Below are positions 7,844 to 58,694 of a DNA stretch of 64,000 nt, piece by piece. The DNA is from Powellomyces hirtus. Lineage: Eukaryota > Chytridiomycota > Chytridiomycetes > Spizellomycetales > Powellomycetaceae. How positions within the stretch are numbered: the first letter of the stretch is position 1; every line of letters starts with the position of its first letter. Made by a program: the position numbers and the translations under genes. The DNA lies in assembly GCA_025526995.1 (NCBI GenBank), contig JAHLKG010000003.1:124001-188000 (forward strand). Reading direction: 5' to 3'. Below the pieces are notes generated by a model. It was not told the DNA's origin, did not search any database, and saw nothing but the letters and a program-made list of their open reading frames with translations.

Positions 7844-8650
7844 TCAGGCTTCCGGAATGGGAGCCGAGTTGTGGCACACCTTTGGGGTGTACACATTTTG
7901 CCCCGCTCTGGACATGCCGCGGACTACGGGGAGACGAACGCATCGAATGGCCTTGATAATGGATTCGGTGTTGAAGCGGGCGCCTTCAGGGGAGGTGTGG
8001 GTTCCGTCGATGGGGAAAAACGTGTCGAGAACCGAGATGCCCATTGTGTCGTATCCATCCGCAGCAATCTGGCGCATGTCGAGAAACGCCGTCTTCTCGG
8101 ACTTGGAGACTGCCAGGGACCATTCACTCCACTGGTCACCCCTCGCCACGCCGTTCGTCGCATTGTTCCATTTCTTGGTGAGGGTCTTGGAGACCAGGAC
8201 GGGGATGGCGCCTTTAGCTCTCGTGTCCGCAACCATGGTTCTCAAATAGTGTCCAAACGAAAACACGCGCTCGGGCTGGCCAGTCACTCCATTGACGGTA
8301 TCCTGGAACTCCTCTCCAATTCCCCTAATCACCCCGCGAGACCGCGTGGAATCCGTCAGAGGCGACTGGTCGTTGTGGCCAAACTGGATCATGACAACAT
8401 CGTTGGGCTTGGTTTTGCTCATGAGGGATGTCCAGTGACCTTCGGTGATGAAGGTTCGCGACGATCGGCCTGCTACGGCGGCGTTGTTAACAGTGATGGT
8501 TTGGCTGTAGAAGTAGTCTTGGAGAAATCCGCCCCAGCCCAAGGTGCCTCCCGAACCCCCTGTGGCGCCGGTAGAGTCCCCGGCGAGATGGAGAGTTGTT
8601 GCAGCCAGCGCGGACGGGATCACTGTGAGGAAGAGGGCGGTGAATTTCAT
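7844..8650 (-). CDS. Secreted rhamnogalacturonan acetylesterase (CE12, SGNH/GDSL hydrolase)
   Basis: Removes acetyl groups from the rhamnogalacturonan I backbone of pectin, outside the cell. Intronless, 268 residues, with a signal peptide MKFTALFLTVIPSALA. The SGNH blocks are all present: GDST with catalytic Ser26, NNAAVAGRSS with the oxyanion Gly61, FGHND with Asn93, and DGTHTS with the catalytic Asp215/His218 pair. Length and spacing match fungal RGAE enzymes. A TATA-like box lies about 65 bases upstream of the start. Lack of introns contrasts with most neighbours and is compatible with acquisition by transfer or with intron loss; sequence alone does not decide. The neighbouring GH5 and lipase genes suggest plant-material degradation. 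Confidence 0.93.
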   Translation of the reverse strand: MKFTALFLTVIPSALAATTLHLAGDSTGATGGSGGTLGWGGFLQDYFYSQTITVNNAAVAGRSSRTFITEGHWTSLMSKTKPNDVVMIQFGHNDQSPLTDSTRSRGVIRGIGEEFQDTVNGVTGQPERVFSFGHYLRTMVADTRAKGAIPVLVSKTLTKKWNNATNGVARGDQWSEWSLAVSKSEKTAFLDMRQIAADGYDTMGISVLDTFFPIDGTHTSPEGARFNTESIIKAIRCVRLPVVRGMSRAGQNVYTPKVCHNSAPIPEA

Positions 8651-8710
8651 CTTGGCTCGGAATCAGGGGAATGATAGGGGAAAACGTCGGGGCGGTGGAA
8701 AGAGTCTATC

Positions 8711-23595: not shown

Positions 23596-24674
23596 ATGAA
23601 GTTCCTTGTCCTGTTCTCCACCGTTCTCGCGGCTCTCACCAGCCAAACCGTCACTGCCGCAAAGCATTTCCAGTACACGGGCGTATCGGAATCATGCGCC
23701 GAGTTCGGTCCCGGCAACTTGCCCGGGACATATAACCGGGATTACACCTACCCGACTGACGCCAGTCTTGATTTCTTTATCAAGGGCTGCTCGAACTTGA
23801 TCCGTCTTCCTTTTGCTTGGGAACGACTTCAAAGAACACTCGGAGGAGAACTTGATGCTGAGGAGTTTTCGCGAATTGATGGTGTGGTCAAGTATGTCAC
23901 CGGAAGAGGCCAGAACCTGCTTTTGGACCCGCATAACTACAACCGATACCGGGTATGTTATTCATATCTGAGGATGTTGGCACTTAGGGCACATAACTCA
24001 TTCTTTGTACTGCCATGCCGTTGCAGGGACAGCTCGTTACTCCCGACCAGCTCGCAAACTTCTGGACCAAGCTCGCTAACCGATACAAGGACAACCAAAA
24101 GGTCATGTTCGGTCTAATGAACGAGCCCCACGACCAGCCCACCGAAGACGTGTTCAAGACCATGCAAGCTGCCATCAACGCCATCCGAGCCACCACGGCC
24201 AAAAATCTCATCACCGTACCGGGCAACGCCTGGACGGGCGCTCACTCCTGGACCAAGAACTACTATGGAACCAGCAACGCCGAAGTCATGGCCAAGATCG
24301 TCGACCCCGCCAACAACTTTATGTTTGAAATGCACCAGTACCTCGACTCCGACTTCTCTGGAACCCACGACACGTGCCAATCCGCCTCGATCGGTGTCGA
24401 GTCCCTGGTCGCGGCCACCGAGTGGGCACGGAAACTGGGCAAGAAGATCCTACTTGGTGAGATTGGTGGTGGAGACAACGCTTTGTGCTATGCGGCGCTT
24501 GAGAACACTATGAAATACATGATGGAAAACTCGGACGTTTGGGCTGGGTACGCTTGGTGGGCTGCGGGTCCTTGGTGGGGCAACTACATGTTCAGCGTCG
24601 AGCCTAACGCAGACAGCTCGCCCAAGCCTCAGTGGACAAAGTTCCTTCAGAGGTACACGCAGTGCTCGGCCTAA
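23596..24674 (+). CDS. Secreted GH5 endo-beta-1,4-glucanase (GH5_5-like cellulase)
   Basis: Cleaves internal bonds in cellulose outside the cell. Exons 23596-23952 and 24027-24674 give 334 residues. Signal peptide MKFLVLFSTVLAALTSQTVTA. Substrate-site strand IRLPFAWERLQ, then the acid/base Glu152 in FGLMNEPHD, HQYLDSDFSGTH, and the nucleophile Glu264 in ILLGEIGGG. The architecture is a catalytic domain alone, without a visible CBM or linker. I chose the Met at 23596 because it starts a clean signal peptide; 17 codons upstream are open but are not signal-like. A broken paralogue lies 4-5.6 kb upstream on the same strand, so this is the surviving copy of a local duplication. Confidence 0.93.
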
Positions 24675-25433: not shown

Positions 25434-28400
25434 ATGTCCCGGCAGATTCTCGTGCTCGGAGCAGCTGTGCTCCTCTCCGCATTACGAGTATCGGCAGATG
25501 CACTGGAATGCACACTATCCACCGCCCAGTGTAATCCAGATGGGGGCGACTGTGTTGGGAACATCTGGTAATTTCCACAGTTCCCATTTCATGATGGTCC
25601 AAACGTTGTTTAACGCATCAAGCAAAGTCGTTGCATTGCCAACTTTGGTGGTCCAGACTGCAGCACAGTTAGAGGCCCAACTGGCTCGAATTATCACATC
25701 TTTGGGTCAGTCTTTCCATTTTACTCGTCCGCCCAGTAATGACTCTCATGGAGATATTAGGATGCAAGACATGCCTGTTGTGCCCCTCGACGACAATTCG
25801 GCAACAGGTTTCTCTACTTCCAGCCTGAGGGGCAGTTCCGAGCCGGCGTGTGGAGTTGACTACACTGTAGAGAATAGGATGAATCTGGTTGTGGATACCT
25901 CCGCTCTTGATGCAGTAAAGGCGGCTGTCGCACCGCTGTCCTCGGTGCAAGCAGTCTACACACAAGTATGTTGAATGCTCTCCTTTGGAGCCTGCTGTGA
26001 TCTGGATCAGCTCATCAATCCTTGTGTTTCATGCTAGTATGATCTCATCTGCTTTGCGCACAAACTGGACAAAAACGAGGGCAGATCCTTCCTATCAGGC
26101 GCATTCAGCGCAACAGGTCCAGTTTCCGTGACCTACGCCAAAGCATTGGATGCCGCAAGAAGTTCCTGGGTTGGTTACCATGGTCGAGTACCCTTGAGCA
26201 ATGGGAACAATACGGTTGGGTTTGCCGCCGCATACTCGGTCCCGAGTCCATTGACTCCGAACGCCCCGCAAGAGTTTCTCTTTACCGTGGACACACAAAA
26301 ACTGAACGCAGATGGGTCGGTTGCTGGGGCGTTGTCCATTGCAGACTTGTTGGCGGGTCTTGGCTATGGTGATATCATTGAGAGCATTCTTCCTCCCGGA
26401 GATGATTCTTGGCATCAACAAGTTTTGAATAATCTGCGTATCGAGGTTGGGGCGATCAGTTGATACATCATCAGCAGTTGGTTACTGATATGATTGCTTT
26501 TATGTAGTCTGTCAGTCTGACGGCATCTGCGGTTCTTACCGACCTACCCAGCTCATCGATTGACTACTTCCTGGCCCGAATTGCCGCGTATCCGGACTCG
26601 GGTTACGGTTGGCAGCTCACTCCTGAGCTGACACTCAAGGAGATCCAGGTAAAAAAAACGGCATTGAGAATGAAAGCGCATCGTGAAATATATTCGTTGG
26701 TTTGCATGCCGTTTGTTGCAGCCCTGAATTGCTAAAAGAATCCCGTTATAGGTTGACATTCTGTATCTTAAGCAAGCTGGATATGGATGGGGCGCTTCGA
26801 TCCAAGGAACATTCAAAATTGGCGACACATTCGTAGCATCGAGAGTTGAATACCTCAGTGCTGTAGATCCCAAAAAGCCAGATGCTGCATCCAGAATGAC
26901 CGCGACGCTGTTCGTTGACCGGATTAGCCCTGACGATATCTTTCAAACGCTGTGCGGTGGCACATTGCTGGAGGGTCTTCCGGTGCAAGATATTTTGCCA
27001 GATTTGCAGAATACCTACATTTATGTCGAATTCAAGAGCACCTCGACGACAGGAATGCAGATTAGTCGTGTACGGCTACAGACTATAGTGGATAGCAATA
27101 TCAAGTTTTCCGACACGTAGGTCGCATCGTAGCATTTCTGTGCACTGGAACTGTCCTAAATTTCTTAAACCAGTCTTGCGCTGAGCGGAATCGGAATTGA
27201 TTTTGGCCTAGTGAGAAACAGCGTCGGAAGTTTTGATTTGGCTGCTACCGGTGAGCTGCTGCTACTATCAATGCACATGGTGTCTTCCGTCTAACTGCTC
27301 TATTCGAAAAGCGTTTGCGACCCTCCAGGCCGGTAAAGCAGACAAAACCATCACGGTTGTCGCGCAGCTCACAAAAACAGCTAGCGCTTCCCGACTGGTC
27401 GTCGAGCTTCGTGATAGTGAGGCACTTTCTTTAGGAAATATTTTGGATGAGATCGTCGGAGCACAGACGCTGGACGCGGTGCTTCCTGAAGGTCTCCCCG
27501 CCGTTGACGCACTCTTGGCTGTCGCTCTCCGCTCGGTAGAGTTCAACTTTGCCACCGAAAAATCCGGCAAGAAGACCGCCGATTCCTTGACACGCTTCGG
27601 CATCTTCGCTGCGCTCCCAGCTGGCCAGTCTTATGTTCTGATTCCAAATTTCCTCGCCATACGGGACGGTTCTTTTACATTGGGAGTTAATTTCCCTTAC
27701 AAAGACAATGGCGTCGACTTCAGTTTTACCACAGCTATAGCTGTGGGGCCGACCGGCGATCCATCGCCTCTCCTCCTCACTGCGAGCGTCATTCGCCCGA
27801 ATCCCATCCTCAAGCAACCTACAATGTTGGAAGTGCGCTCGCCGGGACTGACCATCTCAGCCCTTCTCGAAAAGGCAGGGGTGCAACTGGGTGATGCGGA
27901 TGCCGTATTTGATGCAGTGGCGATAGACGCTTTCAGGGTGAAATGGAACTTTGGGTCAAAAAAGGTCAATAATGCGGCAATGATCTTCACCATGCCGCAA
28001 GGGACGGCATTGGACTTTTTAAAACTTGAAGAAATGACCGCTACCATTGAGCTATTTAACATGGGCACCCCGACCAAGAGCTATGCTTTTAAAATTGTCG
28101 CCAAGTGGAATTTTGGCACGATCGCAGTACGTACTTATTCTTTGTTGCTTGCTGTTTTTAATGTCAGATTCTTATCGTTCCACAGCTTGATGTCACACTT
28201 GGAAGGCAAGGCACATCTTGGTATTTGCAAGCAGCTATCCCTTCAACACTTTCTCTCGGTTCAGCCATGTCCGGAAGCGGCAAGGACCCTCTGACAGACA
28301 TCAGCGCACAAATTTTGGATATGATCCCGGGAATCAAGGACATTCAGCTGACGGACACTAAAATTTCATTGGTTTTCGACGATGGGGCGAAGCAGAATGA

Positions 28401-31400
28401 AGCGGCTATCAAATTCCAGTCCTCGGTCTCATTAAAAACCCTTAATGATATAACAAAGAACCCAAACGCAAAATTCCCTGTGGAGCTACTTTTGGGGGTA
28501 TACAAGGGAAGGGTAAGAACACCCATCTGCGTACTCATGGGGAGATTCTTAGCTCACGACATTACAGCCCCTCCTGGCAATAGGATTTGTCCTCAACTTT
28601 GGATTCTTGAACGACATCATCACACACTTCATTGGCTCCGGCGTCGAGTTCTTGGCTGTCTTTGGCGGGACCAACCTTGCACTCCTTGTATCGACCGAGT
28701 CCTTCGTAGCAAGCCCTGGATCCCCACTGAAATTTGACACACCCGGTTTCCCCCAACTCAGTTCCGTCCCATACCCACAGGGAGTTGCAATTGCAGCAGA
28801 CATCCAGTCGCCTGATTGTACTAAGACGTCTGGCGCGGGCGCCGAGATCTGCAACTATATCAGAGAAAATGTGTTTCCCATTGGAACAAGTCTGACGATC
28901 CTCGGCTCTTTCGGAACCACTCCGTTGGTACAGCTGTTGATTCAAAGCAACAGTGTCATCAAGATAGAGCTCTCTAAAACTGATAACATTCAGGGTGAGT
29001 TTCAGCATTTGTAACAAGCTTTCAGCGGCCTCTAACAAAATGCGCCTTACCCAGTTGGCCCTGTGACTGTGGGCTTCCGGATTGACAAGCAAGGCTCCCA
29101 ACCCGCTATTTACGTTGCCGGAGATTTCCGTCTTGTTGTCGGAGGCGAAAATATTGGGTTCAATTTGGAAATTAGCGCCAGTACTGGTACTGTGATGGGA
29201 ACGGCCTACCAGCTCCCTGGAAGTGCCATCACAACCAAATGGCTCCAGAATTTGGGCGTCAACATTCCCTCAATCTCCATCACCGATCTTACCATCGGAG
29301 TGGGAGTGACTGAGCTGGTCGTTGTTCCGTCCATTGTTGGCGGTGCTACAATCGTTCTGGGCGATTTGAAGAAAGACAATCACATCGAATTTTTTGCGTA
29401 CATTGGATTCAATCCCAACGATTATACGCAAGACTTCTTCTCTGGGAAGGTCTCTCAGATCACAATGGGGAAGATTGTGGGAGTCTTTGCAAATGTCCAG
29501 AAAGGAGCGGTCAGTGCCAAACAATCTCGATATGCACTACCCTCTCCACGCATGTCTCACAATGTTACTACTTTCAGTATCCTGCGTTCCTCGACGATTG
29601 GATGTTGACAGATGGGATCACTGCCTCTTTCTGTCTGGTCTTTGGCGGATGCGGTGGCTATCGTAATATCCCTACCATCAAAAATGGGTTGGCAGCCAAT
29701 GGAACGTTTGGACTGAACATTCCTGACTTCAATGGGGACCTTGGGTTTCTCAACGGTAAGATCCCACATACAAATATCTGGCTCTTCAACTTTCTGATGT
29801 CAACGGAAATTGCTTATCTCCTTTTGCAGGACTCAAGGATCAGCTGAACAAGCGATTCACCGGAAGTCTGGACATTCTAGTCAGCATCAACCCCCTCCGA
29901 TTCAGGATGGGGGCTCATCTCCCCGTCATCGACTTTTTGGGGTTCGTCAAAATCTACGAGAATGACCAAAGGGCTGCGGGTCCGAAAGCCTTAGTCGATT
30001 TGGCGATTGGCTTCACAGCACCACCACAATTCGAAGTAGGCCTTCAAGCGTACGCCGCCGTCGGCGTGGGCAAATTTAGTTTGAGTAGGTTTTAGGTATC
30101 TTGGAATAATACGACCTTGTCCATTAACTTTGCTGCTGAACTTTAGGCGCAAGCTGCGATGTTCGACTGTCCAACACGTTTATTTATCTCGAGTTCGGTG
30201 CCGGAGTCGGGTTCATTGGGACTGGAACTATCAAGTATAAAGATAAACTGTGTTCTCATTGTAAAATCCTCGCTCACTCACGTCCTGCAGAATCGTCGTG
30301 GACCTTACTTCTGGATCTGTCCTCGCGGGCTTTGCTTGGACGTGGTCCAAAGAGATGACTGCCGTGATTGAAATCGGAAGAAAAGTCATTGCAGCTGTTG
30401 AGGCTGTGGTGAAAGACATTGTCAGCACGACTGTTGCGGTTTTCAACAAAGTGGTTGCTGCTATCGAGCAGGTATGGTACCTGTGCATTTTGCAGGCGCC
30501 TACGGGGTACACTAACACAGAAAATCATTCTCCATCACAGGCAATCCATGCTATTGCCGACTTTATCAACGATGCTATTGACTCGATCAAGCAGGTTTGT
30601 ATGCGTCTTCCTAATACCAGTGAATAACTGAGAGTCATTTAACATTCTTCTCATATAGGCCGCAGTAGCGGTTGCCAACGCTTTCAAGGATGCATTCAAC
30701 AAGGCCAAGAAAGCTCTCGAAGACGCCGCAAGGTCCGTTGCAAATTTCTTCAAGAGCCTCTTCCGCCGCGACTTGAACTCTTTGGATCCCGAATACATGG
30801 AGACTGTCGACCGCTTGCTTGGAAGTGGCCTCCACACTCGGCAGATTATCAGCTGCGATACCACATGTGGATACACGGCCCAGGCCAACTATTATGTGAA
30901 TAATGGGTGGGTTGGGCTCAAATGAGTGACAACAAAGCATCTTTCACTCCGCTCACATTATGGAGGATTTGTTAGCTGTCAGGTCACCAAAGACTTTTGC
31001 TTCCCGAGTTGCTATGAAAAGTCTAAGGAAGGCGTATGCACGCAAAATTGCCAGTGCCTCAGCACTTGCGTTGAGTCGGTATGTTTTTGGCATGTAAACA
31101 CGAACTATGGACAGCAAACTAATGAAAAAAACTTAGGTATGCATGGACACTCTGAACAGTGATGGCAAGACATACTACCAGGCGTATCAAGAGTGGGAAG
31201 CCAGAAACCGGAAGCTGCGAGAAGTGGGAGAGCGAGTTAGCAAGGGCGAGGTGAGCTTTTCCCGCAAGTTTTCATGACAAGGAAGGTTTTTAACAAATGG
31301 TACGTTGCGATTCTGCGCAGGTGCCAAATGCGGTGGTCAAAACGGTCTCAGTGTCGAATCAATCCATATCGCCAAGCACGTGGGGAAAGCCTGCACCCGT

Positions 31401-34400
31401 CAATGTAGAGACCGGCCCCGATGGCACTACCACCGGTCCCCAAGCAGAGACGAAACAGGGGCGCTACCAACTGAACCCGCTGGACGAATTCGACACAACC
31501 CAAGCGCTGGCTGACGCAACCCTCGACGCGAGGTTCAACCTGGAGGGCCTGGGCAGCGCTGGTTTGAGGACGCTGTCAGAGTATGCTGCATACCCTCCGC
31601 CAGAGTTTGGCTTCTTTGTAGCGGATGGCCCCGCCCGAGAATGTCAGAGCAGCGGCAGAATCGTGGATGACTACTTCTACGTTGAAGCTCAGAAAAACCG
31701 GCCGGCTGTATTGAACGGAATCATTAATCACTGTCCGAACAAAAATCTCGGCTTGAACTACGTGATGCTGCGGACTGGGCCAGCTTGCGAGGAGAAGATC
31801 GTCGAGTCATGGACGGCAGTTGACCAGTGTCAGCACGACAGTTCTCGGTCTCGAACGGTACAATTTTCGCACATAATTAGATAGGTCAAGACGTCCTGAC
31901 TGATGAATTTGCGTTACTACTACGCAGATTATCTTGAAAGACGAAACTCCACCGATCTTCAACAGTCCGCCTCCAGCAGCGGTCACGGACCAATGCCATT
32001 CCATTCGTCCTATGGCCGTTCTGACAGCTACCGATATCTGCTACCCGGATGAGGTCGGCCCTGTTCAGTATGCCACCGTGGACCCAGTCACCGCCGGATG
32101 CAAACGCCGTGTCATCACATATACTTGGACGGTTGATGATGTTTGTGGAAACCGACAAACGTAAGATTAGTTGCTGGTAAAAACGTTTCGCGCAAGGCTA
32201 ATTTGTGCGCCATTTAGATACTCTCAACTGGTCACGGTTCAAGACAACGACCCTCCCACATGGGACGAGGCCCTTTTCCCCGCGGACGTTGATGTCGAGT
32301 TCATGACTCCTTACGGCGCCGACGTGACCGGATACCCGGTGGCGACCGACAGATGCGCATCCAACCCAATCAAAATCACCTACGCCGACGTGGTTACTGT
32401 CCCGCCCGCAGGTTCAAGGGCAACGCTGATCATCACACGAACATTTACAGCCACTGACGCGTGTGGTAACCCCACCAGCCGGGCCCAGATCATCTCCATT
32501 GTCCAAACGCAACGATCGCTGGGCACTACTGGCCACTACGCGTTAGTTGTCCGCTCCAGCAGTGGCCTTGACGCTGCAGTCGTCGAAGGTCAGATCATTG
32601 CTGGAAAGGATATTCGTGCGACCTACTCCGTTTTCGGGAATGGTACGTGTGGCTTCCATCCCGCCGCTCTGGTCGTAAACGGGTCGTTAGCGATTACGGA
32701 CTCGGCTATCTTGCAAGGCAGCGCTCTTGTTAGCGGCCCTGTGCAGAGCACAAACATGGTGCCATACGTGCTTACGAAGACGACTACTGACGAGGAGTAT
32801 ATGCGCAACACGGACATCAACCTCGCAACTGCATGGACGGTTGCCGACCACTTCCGTGACCGGGTGCTGTCATTGGGTAACTTGCACCTCGGGCCTCTGG
32901 AGGAATCCTGTCATATCCCGGTCCCAGGTGCCCCGGTCAACGCCAACTCCCCTGGTTGCGGAATCATTACGAGTATTTCGGATCCTGATCGCTTTGACGC
33001 CAAACTAGAAGAAACGGAGTTGAAGCTCACGGGCACAAACGCGGTCTACAACATCTTTGCCGTCAACGTCAAACAACTCAGCGCCGCATCCACCATTTCT
33101 GTCAACGTCCCGTCGACGGCATACGTGTTCATCAACATCATTCCTGACCCGGCTGGTCCTACCCCGTCCCTAACCTGGAACAAAAAGACATCGCTTCCAT
33201 CAGGCCTCAATGCCAAGAACGTCCTATGGGTCTTCCACACTCTGGCCACAGTGCGCGACTCAGGCTCATCCACCACGAGTCTGCGTCTTGTGTCGACCGA
33301 CTTCCTGGGATCCATTCTAGGACTGGATTTGGACGTGATGCTGGACTCCCCATCGTCCATCACTGGGTTCTTGTGGTCACAGACACTCCAAGGAGTGGGT
33401 TTCCGGCAGAAGTGCGGCATCTGGCAAGGATCTGCTTTGCTGACGGATCGCGCAACCGCGGGTGCAGGTGTCATCAATCTTGATGAGCTTTTGCCTCAGA
33501 AGCGTACCATCACGTCCTCTGCTGCAACGGTTACCCCGACTACACTTCCCGACACTAAGGCTGGCGTCCTCTGCACGAGTGCCAACCACGGTGCTTGGAT
33601 TTGTGCTCCCGAAAGGTTGGTTTCTTCTTGACGTAATTTCCGCATGATCTCCCCTAACGCTTTATGGATTGATTCAGATTCCGTTGCGTAAACTTAGTGT
33701 GGATTGCAGACCCTTGTGCCGGAGATCTTGTATGCGGCGCAGGGGGGGCCTGTGTACAAAACACCCCTCTCACTGAACCTGCCCAGCTTGCATGCGGTGT
33801 GACCAATAACTACGAATGGGCATGCAATCCCGATCGGTAAGTACAAATCGTCTGTAGATTATCTATGACATTTACTAATTGTGGTTTCCGCTTTATCAGC
33901 GCTCGTTGCGTCAATGGCGCGTGGGCAAACTCGCCCTGTCCCGCTGGCACGGTATGCTCGGCTGGAACATGTGTCTACCCTTCCGCGGTGGTTCCCACCC
34001 CTGCAGCAGCCCCGTCGAGTACAAACGCAGCTGGCTACGTGTGTGGTCCTGGCAACAACAATGCTTGGGAATGCACGCCCAATCGGTAAGTGCTCTCAGA
34101 CGCCGTCAGATTTAGAATACAAACTTTCTCACTGGCATGACGTTCCTCTTCCTGCTATTAGGGCCTGGTGCGTTGATGGAAAATGGAACGACTTCCCCTG
34201 CGACATCGGAACCTCATGTGTCGGCGGGCAATGCCAGCAAAACGCGGTCACGACCGAGATGCCTTCAGTCGGTGCTGCCACTTTGACCACGTCCTCCACC
34301 GTTCTTGCTCCGTCTGTAGCTCCCACAACCACTGCCGCAACAACGACCACAATTAAGGCCTGTGGTGCGGAGAACCAGTACGCCTGGGATTGTACGCCAG

Positions 34401-34489
34401 ATCGTGCCCGTTGCGTAAATGGGGCTTGGATCAAGTATCCCTGTGACGGTGGCACTGTGTGTCGTGAAGGAAGCTGTGTTTGGGCTTGA
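25434..34489 (+). CDS. Giant secreted modular protein (predicted 2,517 aa, 24 exons): unknown N-terminal region, HYR-like domains, choice-of-anchor-A-like domain, four CBM19-like modules
   Basis: Exon ends: 25434-25567, 25623-25965, 26038-26445, 26508-26648, 26752-27116, 27174-27250, 27312-28126, 28186-28512, 28568-28994, 29055-29509, 29578-29755, 29830-30084, 30147-30234, 30291-30471, 30541-30594, 30659-30906, 30976-31078, 31137-31250, 31321-31857, 31928-32160, 32218-33615, 33678-33836, 33900-34085, 34162-34489. All 23 introns are GT-AG and phase-consistent. A signal peptide (residues 1-21) is followed by about 1,300 residues of unrecognised beta-rich sequence with similar short segments such as DLLAGLGYGDIIESILP. 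Residues about 1340-1470 are amphipathic helices, followed by a Cys cluster. HYR-like strands (DACGNP, DDVCGN) follow, then a choice-of-anchor-A-like domain from about 1930, then four Cys/Trp modules from about 2280. No membrane anchor is seen. Probably an extracellular or wall-associated binding protein; the function is inference. Confidence 0.85.
33570..34489 (+). repeat. Four tandem Cys-rich CBM19-like modules at the C terminus of the giant protein
   Basis: Each module of about 45-50 residues has the pattern C-x(6-8)-W-x-C-x-P-[DNE]-R, then C-V-x(3)-W, then PC-x(2)-G-x(2)-C and a final C. Examples are ACNPDR with RCVNGAWANSPCPAGTVC in module 2 and DCTPDR with RCVNGAWIKYPCDGGTVC in module 4. 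Modules 1-3 are each split by an intron in the same Arg codon right after the PxR motif (phase 2); module 4 has no intron. The spacing resembles fungal CBM19 chitin-binding domains. Linkers before modules 3 and 4 are Pro/Thr/Ser-rich. Confidence 0.8.
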
Positions 34490-37198: not shown

Positions 37199-37547
37199 AT
37201 GTGAACTGAAACCAATGGACAAGGGCAAGACCAGAACAGGCTACTCTTTGACAGGGTCGACAGTGAAAGAGAGTCAGTGTCAGTTACGATTACGTAAGGC
37301 GAGGCGCGTTGGAATCAAAAGCTCCGATTCGAAATTCGATGGTCAAAGGCGTCAGTCTCGTCGGGGACTTTTCCTGGGCTAATTATTTTGGAAACTTGTA
37401 TGAACGTTGACTCCGACATTCGAGACTCCATTTGAGCAGAATCACGGACCTGTGACTTTTCGTTTCTCGCAGCAGAGGACACACTACACAAGTTGGTACG
37501 ACGCGAGACATTTTCCCAAAGAACTTTCTGCTGGACACTAGATCAGA

Positions 37548-38569
37548 ATGGGGTCGCCCGGAAAGTATCGACAGGACGGTGGGGGAAACGGTACTTCTAT
37601 GCCAGAGCTCCGAACCCAGCAACAACAGCAGCAGCAACAACAACAACAGCAGCAGCAGCAACAACAGCTTCCTCCCCAGCCACCATATCCATACTCTCCG
37701 CAGCAACAACAGCAGTTCATGCAGCAGCTCCACTTTCAGCAACAACAACATCAATCCTTTTCCCACCCATCACAGCGGCCTCCGCACATGTATCAGATGC
37801 CGCCGTTTGAATACCAAGGATCGCTTGGACAGCCAATGCTCCATCATCAGCAGCAACCGGGACAGCAAGACGACAGTCACCATCGCTCACCTCAACATTC
37901 CTACTTACCACAACTCGTTCGTCCACCGCATCAGTACAATGCCACTCTGGGAAACAACACAGCGATTCATCCGGAATTCCATCACAATACGCAACGGTAT
38001 CCTCACTCTCAACAGCACAAGCAACACCCAATGCCAATGCGTCCACCCTCATTAGAGCAACAACAACAACATCACCAACCCTCTCCTCTCTGGTTTCAGC
38101 AATTACAGCAGCACCAACAGCTGCCACCACACATGGACGCACGACAGCGTCACCAATCACTACCCCCGCCGCAGCAATATCAACGTCCACCAGCCCTTGC
38201 CAAAGCCTACATCGCAATACCACGTCCTCCACCTCGTTCCCCACTCACCACACACCAAAGATACACGATTGACCGCGAAGCTGTTGCAAAGAATCCAGCC
38301 GCTACGGAGTATACACCTTATTCGCTCCGGGATTGGGAAGAGTTGAAGCGCAGAGATCAGAAGACGAGACTTCCGAGAGGAACAGGTCCAAGACGGGAGG
38401 ACGATGAGGAGTTTCGGAAAGCGGTAAGCTTGATCCCACCTGAGTACCCGACCAATGTCATTCGCGCTCTTACTTTTCCTCTTACTTTCACGCTTGGCAG
38501 CACGAGAAGTTGCTCAGGGCGCAGCAATACGCAGAACGTATTGCACAGATTAACCGCGAAAGGGCTTGA
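37548..38569 (+). CDS. Poly-glutamine protein with a short conserved C-terminal motif
   Basis: Exons 37548-38423 and 38501-38569, 314 residues. After MGSPGKYRQDGG comes a long Gln run (residues about 24-41, mostly CAG/CAA), then about 170 residues of Gln/His/Pro-rich sequence. The last 80 residues are different: NPAATEYTPYSLRDWEELKR, then LPRGTGPRREDDEEF, then a basic helix ending YAERIAQINRERA. This 'YTPYSL-x-DW ... RL/LP-x-G-x-GP ... helix' pattern reminds me of a motif in cilium-associated proteins such as JHY. That resemblance is from memory of the pattern, and it fits a flagellated fungus. The motif spans the intron in frame, which supports the splice model. Confidence 0.65.
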
Positions 38570-38974
38570 AGATGACCATAGATTTCTTATGATTGTATTT
38601 AGGCAGTTTTTATCAAGCACTGCCGTATGTAAATCCCACATGTGGTGAATCGCGCTAGTTTTGTTTGCGAGGATCTGGATCTGGGCTTTTCACAGAAGCA
38701 CATAAGTAGGAGGTCTCCTTTTTCCCTAGAAACCCTCCATAGACCTCAAGGCGGTTTGCTTCCTGAGTCCAAATGGTACTGCCACGTTCTTCCCATATCC
38801 TTTTTTAAATCCCTGTTCTCTCTGCACTCCGTCTACAATATCGTGCATTTATTATCACGGCCATCCTGTCACTTTTAGTCGCGATGTGTGGCTTAGGCGT
38901 GGCTTGACGACTCTCGCACATCGTTAGTACTTTTCCCACGTTCCCTCTTCCGCACCCAATACCTTCTCAGCGAC
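38570..38974. other. Spacer, no gene seen
   Basis: 3' flank of the poly-Q gene and promoter of the Cys-rich gene. No domain-bearing frame. Confidence 0.6.
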
Positions 38975-57436: not shown

Positions 57437-58694
57437 ATGCGTTTCTCAACCTTCATCACCTCCTGCCTGCTAGCCGCCGGGTCCGCCCGCGCCGCCCCGC
57501 AGCCCTCGCGCGTCGGTGCCCCCACCGAAGCCGAGATCACAGCGATGCGGATCCAATTCCTCGAGTCCGCATACAACCAGACCGTGACCCCCGCGATGGT
57601 CGAAAATGTTTCTTCAGGAGCCATTCGTCAGCTCTCCGCCACATTGGCCGAAAAGTCGCAGCCCAAAACAGCGAAACAAGTGGGACTGACTGCTGCTGCT
57701 GCAAAGGAGTTGGAGTTTGCGGGGCTCGCTAGGAATCATGCCGGACCGGTTGATCCGGCGACCAATACCGCGGTGTTGCGGAGTACGATGTATGCCGCGG
57801 CGGCGTATTGCTTCAAGTGGCATTTCAACTGGAATTGGAACTGTAATGAGCGCTGCACAAATGGATTGACGGATGGGACGAAGATGGTCGATTATTTTTT
57901 CAAGGATTCCACTACGGGATTCGTAAGTACTCTGATGGCGTTTCTCAACCTTCTTTTCGCATCATGAACTCACCACCTTTGCTTTGCTTTGACTCTTATC
58001 ACAGGTCGCCTACAACGACGCTCAAAAATCCGTCATCGTTTCCTTCCGGGGCACGCTCGGGCCCCTCAATTTCTTCCGCGACCTTCAACTCAACGTCGTT
58101 CCCCTCGACATTGGCAAAACGGGCGGGATCACCCCTCCCCCCTCTGACGCCCGCGTCCACAACGGGTTCCAAATCACGCTCGAAGTCGCTCGCGAACGGG
58201 TCCGCAAAGCCGTCGCGGGCGTGCTCGCCAACCCCGCGCGCGCCAACTACGCTGTTACGGTCGTCGGGCATTCCTTGGGTGGTGCGATCGCCACACTCGC
58301 ATCTATTGATTTGAAAGATTTTTTGGGAAACAAAAATACGGTTAATGCATACACATTTGGTGCACCCCGCGTCGGCAACGAGGCTTTCGCGAAATGGGTC
58401 GATTCCCTCCCCATCACCATCTCCCGCATCACTGCCCTCCATGACCCCATCCCCACCGTACCCCGGCGCGAATGGTACCCCCTCAACTACCAACACGCGA
58501 ACACTGAATTCTACACCGATGCGGGAAAAACCATCAACAAGTGCACGGAACCTGCTAATGGAGATGAACCCGCAGACTGCCTCAATGGCGAACCCGACCT
58601 GATCGGCCGTGATATTGCTTCCCTCCTCACCCCCGTATGGATTTTCTGGCATCTCAACAACTATGCCAAGACGGTGTTTGGACCCTGGTGCTGA
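57437..58694 (+). CDS. Secreted class 3 lipase (fungal triacylglycerol lipase)
   Basis: Hydrolyses ester bonds of triacylglycerols outside the cell. Exons 57437-57922 and 58005-58694, 391 residues. Signal peptide MRFSTFITSCLLAAGSARA, then a propeptide-like Ala/Glu/Lys region of about 85 residues, then the lipase domain with ST-MYAAAAYCFKWHFNWNWNC. VIVSFRGTLGPLNFFRDL forms the oxyanion strand, VVGHSLGGAIATL holds the nucleophile Ser252, and LHDPIPTVP carries the acid Asp308. The likely catalytic His378 is in WHLNNY. The order and spacing match Rhizomucor-type lipases. A TATA box and pyrimidine-rich leader precede it, consistent with a regulated secreted enzyme. Confidence 0.93.

Follow-up and report, generated by a model that had tools for sequence, protein, structure and literature searches.

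What kind of protein is specified by the long, repeatedly interrupted coding region found in a contiguous stretch of 64,000 nucleotides of Powellomyces hirtus DNA (hereafter the window), and does this region represent one gene or several? The original prediction, made from the nucleotide letters, proposed a single 24-exon gene for a giant secreted protein with choice-of-anchor-A-like, HYR-like and CBM19 domains and recognized no described equivalent. Our preferred answer, to which we assign a probability of roughly 0.55, is that the locus holds one gene, whose product would be a secreted chytrid protein that binds walls in a multivalent manner; the functional part of this answer is argued from analogy. 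The predicted architecture is new in that it combines known adhesive modules with an orphan region, and no published description of it was found, as judged by titles and abstract openings among the matches listed. In this sense the claim of novelty holds, but a predicted counterpart of the protein exists in Thoreauomyces humboldtii, and one of its domains has been characterized in Acanthamoeba.

The gene model was rebuilt independently from the raw sequence; it is free of internal stops, and its introns are 55-103 bp in length (Table 1). A simple dynamic-programming gene finder initially returned 28 exons, and 23 exons under each of three stricter intron costs; the junctions of introns 7, 14, 15 and 21 were then placed manually to reach the final model. 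The rebuilt structure matches the 24 exons, 23 GT-AG introns and 2,517 codons originally claimed, an agreement that pertains to these counts, since no exon list accompanied them. The first protein search gave three matches among 7,992 scored candidates, one of which was HKX48_006292 (P0001), a hypothetical protein of 2,110 aa from T. humboldtii (Chytridiomycota, Spizellomycetales). It aligns collinearly with the P. hirtus gene product from aa 145 to aa 2263 of the latter; 927 of the 2142 positions are identical (43%), and both proteins show the succession of orphan region, HYR-like region and choice-of-anchor A (CAA) domain. A search of other proteomes for the same domain order had been proposed; HKX48_006292 displays this order over the aligned span, but its model has no signal peptide, no counterpart of exon 17 and no CBM19-like tail, and its annotation is perhaps incomplete. 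The locus is one continuous gene in the rebuilt model, and the single-gene claim is upheld by this collinear alignment, which includes 19 of the 23 splice junctions. A second copy was not found in the 29.3 Mb P. hirtus genome, where HKX48_006292 as the query matched this locus only (10 matches; six candidates scored).

Table 1. Features of the P. hirtus gene and its predicted product (positions are those of the window).
Feature	Position	Strand	Basis
Whole gene, 24 exons/23 GT-AG introns, 2,517 aa	25434..34489	+	Rebuilt model; continuity from HKX48_006292
Exon 1: signal peptide, probable on visual inspection (~aa 1-22), and a short initial stretch with Cys	25434..25567	+	Sequence, hydrophobicity
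Orphan N-terminal region, aa ~145-1360	25921..30357	+	No Pfam cut-off reached; 38-48% identity per 100 aa to HKX48_006292
Ala/Lys/Glu/Asp-rich segment, probably helical (by eye), aa ~1361-1450	30358..30760	+	
Dibasic RR in FRRD, aa 1452-1453, candidate kexin site	30764..30769	+	FRRD kept in HKX48_006292
Cys-rich stretch, 10 Cys, aa 1482-1535, exons 16-18	30854..31142	+	Rebuilt model; exon 17 without HKX48_006292 support
HYR-like region, aa 1678-1925: two HYR_4C-similar repeats, perhaps a third ahead without HYR_4C match	31639..32509	+	Under Pfam cut-off
Choice-of-anchor A (CAA) domain, PF20597/TIGR04215, aa 1929-2219	32519..33391	+	Profile scores
Four six-Cys repeats (CBM19-like), aa 2280-2514	33572..34477	+	Repeat alignment, CBM_19 scans

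The presence of a CAA domain in the gene product is firm. The whole protein scores 56.7 bits against PF20597 (cut-off 23.8), pieces of exon 21 score 61.2-61.5 bits, and four of six exon 21 cuts (cuts of the exon, not the whole protein) reach 48.6-50.1 bits against TIGR04215 of the NCBIfam collection (cut-off 29); the two longest cuts gave no NCBIfam match. These scores confirm the choice-of-anchor-A call of the original prediction. HKX48_006292 as a whole protein scores 45.6 bits against TIGR04215 and gave no PF20597 match in the profile scan, and its excised piece scores 59.6 bits against PF20597. The AlphaFold model of exon 21 has a mean pLDDT of 35.2, with block means of 55-77 at its residues 261-310 only. 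Sequence searches of solved structures returned none for the protein, and the best match of another such search, complement factor H at E 0.043, was unconvincing. A narrow test for prokaryotic relatives of the CAA domain with two peptide patterns yielded 23 matches, of which none was confirmed.

Pyromyces and Neocallimastix are anaerobic fungi. A legend among the portions of PMC6541295 drawn upon here refers to 'Pyromyces or Neocallimastix', termed oomycetes there, as having predicted proteins in which the CAA domain occurs three to five times, and a Mucor gene with a CAA domain is mentioned in the corresponding portion of PMC11943222. A tested point of comparison is provided by the Jonah lectins of Acanthamoeba. 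In the portions of PMC6541295 at hand, MBP-Jonah(1) bound to cellulose and more poorly to chitin, a GFP form showed no chitin binding, and Jonah was located in the ectocyst layer of the cyst wall; the available part of PMC11423589 reports that, in deproteinated walls, a Jonah fusion attaches to both layers, and that the CAA domain of Jonah is predicted by AlphaFold to be a three-sided β-helix resembling a Colwellia ice-binding protein. Jonah lectins and the predicted P. hirtus protein have in common a CAA domain and spacer regions, and the signal peptide of the Jonah lectins has a probable equivalent in the P. hirtus protein; the Jonah proteins, however, carry one or three CAA domains and Ser/Thr-rich spacers, and the same portions of these two reports (PMC6541295, PMC11423589) mention no orphan 1,300-aa region and no HYR-like or CBM19-like parts. 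A further CAA gene, composed of several exons, resides on the same contig as the gene studied here (region 942567-944099 of the contig, with 77.7 bits to PF20597 at 942987-943739). Its product seems to be small and secreted and to consist of the CAA domain only, with a signal peptide that is probable on visual inspection; tblastn with the present protein did not recover it (best E 1.4), and the likeness is one of profile only.

The modules on either side of the CAA domain are recognizable at scores below their curated cut-offs. Against HYR_4C (PF23237; cut-off 27 bits), 17.8 bits were obtained for the whole protein, 21.1 bits in the scan of the P. hirtus genome, and 22.9 and 21.5 bits for the excised pieces 2 and 3, while piece 1, located ahead of the two HYR-like repeats, gave no HYR_4C match in the profile scan. 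The HYR-like call made earlier thus survives as a recognizable similarity (17.8-22.9 bits) that misses the family cut-off; the HKX48_006292 counterparts score lower still (12.7 and 14.1 bits). A search with a piece of HKX48_006292 returned 83 proteins, HKX48_006292 included, and HYR_4C is precomputed for 79 of these 83. The HYR_4C surface proteins, mostly bacterial, share HYR-like modules with the chytrid protein at 23-41% identity across 16-52% of the searched HKX48_006292 piece; the two that were scanned hold 12 and 21 HYR_4C stretches, and many members of the group end in T9SS sorting tails (PF18962), but none matches the orphan region in a comparison with the N-terminal profile. Amid the mostly bacterial HYR matches there is also a 2,160-aa HYR-repeat protein (P0012) from a eukaryote transcriptome collection, which is without the orphan region.

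The four repeats that constitute the cysteine-rich C-terminal tail are invariant in 14 of 41 alignment columns. Introns 21, 22 and 23 (33616-34161) each split the same Arg codon in phase 2, in the first three repeats respectively, and the fourth repeat is intronless; the tail is therefore supported by its internal symmetry, and the repeats look like the result of tandem exon duplication. The Cys/Trp pattern of CBM19 chitin-binding modules is common to the tail, and CBM_19 (PF03427; cut-off 20.1) is the sole Pfam match of repeats 2 and 4, with 18.2 and 18.4 bits. Repeat 1, however, matches DUF7107 and EB and not CBM_19, repeat 3 has no Pfam match, and CBM_19 was reported for the tail neither in the whole-protein scan nor in the six-frame genome scan. 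For these reasons, the tail, originally assigned to CBM19, is best described as CBM19-like, a likeness carried by repeats 2 and 4, with membership in the family not established. None of ten shuffled sequences with fixed Cys positions matched CBM_19; one of the ten matched Defensin_beta_2 at a similar E-value (E 0.0055), and matches of short, Cys-rich sequences must therefore be regarded as weak. A weak tail match on contig C10 (E 0.02) was discarded, as visual inspection of the open stretches listed there showed no such repeat.

The protein is probably secreted, given a signal peptide called by eye and by hydropathy, the hydrophobic window at residues 5-23 scoring 1.85. The most hydrophobic window of the entire protein, residues 1095-1113, scores slightly higher (1.87), but it contains one acidic residue, its aligned HKX48_006292 counterpart contains two, and the C-terminus of the gene product is not hydrophobic. 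A membrane anchor therefore looks unlikely from hydropathy and alignment. Within the Cys-rich stretch that follows the candidate kexin site, exon 17 (30976-31078) is itself Cys-rich, with seven Cys residues, and an unrelated-looking sequence occupies its place in the Thoreauomyces model.

By analogy with the Acanthamoeba CAA lectins, the gene product is most likely a lectin secreted into the wall or matrix, where several C-terminal modules would hold on to polysaccharide. Following its presumed export from the cell, the CAA domain, probably folded as a three-sided β-helix, would lie against a β-1,4-linked polysaccharide (cellulose or chitin) in the manner of the Jonah lectins, and the Cys-rich tail would provide extra grips on chitin. 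The HYR-like modules could act as stiff spacers, the 1,300 orphan residues at the N-terminus might offer a second binding or structural surface, and the protein would bridge the wall or a substrate to another partner. The polysaccharide binding of the amoeba CAA proteins may, of course, not transfer to the chytrid protein. The secreted, modular, wall-type protein envisioned originally is plausible in this light, with a firm CAA domain, but with HYR and CBM19 components that stay below their cut-offs; zoospore or encystment adhesion, also named in the original prediction, is a putative role. What makes the gene attractive is that a giant conserved protein would combine an orphan half and a chitin-type tail with a CAA domain, a type proven to bind cellulose in the cysts of amoebae; it offers a concrete gene for studies of wall building or surface attachment in chytrids and, if the proposal is true, would show that wall lectins of the CAA type also occur in this lineage of fungi.

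A protein of this composition could alternatively be a substrate adhesin, by which the fungus, or the enzymes that it secretes, would be anchored to external material such as plant cellulose or debris containing chitin; it would then not serve to build the fungus's own wall. The preference of the amoeba CAA protein for cellulose, as reported in the portion of PMC6541295 used here, fits this idea, as does the neighborhood of the gene: an open frame on the same strand (23997-24674), which ends some 760 bp ahead of the start codon, has a GH5 cellulase match of 144.5 bits and probably represents the 3' exon of a gene for a cellulase. This neighbor is compatible with the preferred wall-binding reading as well. 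A single neighbor, however, is weak evidence, the Pfam scan found no catalytic domain in the protein, and the CBM19-like repeats suggest chitin as much as cellulose; we therefore consider attachment to an external substrate a minority option, worth keeping in mind but rather unlikely.

The N-terminal half is conserved but corresponds to no described family. The best Pfam match of the orphan region, DUF348 at E 0.0066, was obtained in one of the two sequences and lies under the cut-off, and sequence comparison with solved structures produced unconvincing matches only (best E 3.5). Internal repeats were not detected by blastp self-comparison or by hhalign of 160-aa windows (maximum probability 5.8%), and AlphaFold, provided with a two-sequence input, modeled exon 7 with a mean pLDDT of 39.5. 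A supposed likeness to the bacterial DUF6603 was rejected, as this family is missing from the Pfam list down to E 10. HKX48_006292 was the sole match when a profile of the N-terminal region was run on 84 fetched proteins, and the databases searched yielded no other relative of the ~1,300 residues at the N-terminus. When aa 157-1361 and the HKX48_006292 counterpart served as the query, no relative at E<=1 was found among 7,997 scored candidates; this search took lengths of 0.55-1.75 x 1,205 aa, a range that HKX48_006292 with its 2,110 aa falls just outside, and full-length orthologues could therefore not surface. Since the sensitivity of the search was limited, absence of the orphan region elsewhere is not established. 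It is a tentative idea, held at clearly less than even odds, that the first ~1,300 residues represent a new, lineage-restricted domain family of Spizellomycetales-type chytrids that has been joined with an HYR/CAA adhesin of bacterial style and with a chitin-type tail that arose by duplication; the product would then be a wall lectin of undescribed design, perhaps cut at a conserved RR.

The site in question follows the putatively helical segment, in whose vicinity identity to HKX48_006292 reaches its lowest value (33% at aa 1341-1440). A kexin-type cut after the RR of FRRD would release an orphan chain of ~1,430 residues and a wall lectin of ~1,060 residues, acting separately or together. The FRRD motif, located where the putatively helical segment ends, is present in both proteins, and the kept dibasic suggests that such cleavage into two chains may occur. 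However, a scan for KR/RR in the gene product found five starts, two of them overlapping in a CKRR motif within the HYR-like region, and since CKRR is likewise kept, retention of a dibasic pair is not special; the comparison, moreover, involves two sequences only. We regard processing at FRRD as an improbable alternative.

The alternative that two adjacent genes were erroneously fused in the model has to be weighed against the fine structure of the alignment. Thirteen of the 19 introns inside the span aligned to HKX48_006292 sit in ungapped windows of +/-12 aa, introns 3, 9 and 13 have 1-3 gap columns in these windows, and introns 11, 16 and 17 have 11-15; window identity is low (6-7 of 22-24) at introns 3, 9, 14 and 15. 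When each exon was searched alone, 16 of the 24 matched HKX48_006292 in order at E<0.01, with E calculated for a single subject. The match of exon 2 is confined to its last 15 aa (E 0.07), and exons 6 and 15, too short to give an in-order match alone, are matched inside the long alignment. In this exon-by-exon comparison there was no in-order match for exons 1, 17 and 22-24, in the case of exons 1 and 22-24 because the HKX48_006292 model begins late and stops before the tail. Models built without transcripts can merge genes, and these five exons are without outside support, but a single predicted protein from a different genome, even if itself a prediction, covers most of the length, and the tail introns share one position and phase. 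A fusion artefact is, in our view, very improbable.

Even less credible is an ice-binding or antifreeze function, which is prompted by the description of PF20597 as Ice-binding-like adhesive and by the resemblance of the Jonah fold to the Colwellia protein noted in the available part of PMC11423589, as it draws on nothing beyond likeness of fold and the tail is of a polysaccharide type.

Other frames in the window include a long open frame at 37542-38645 that contains a poly-glutamine run and has no Pfam match at E 0.001, a frame for a GDSL-type esterase on the minus strand (7847-8662), and a class 3 lipase frame on the plus strand (57993-58691).
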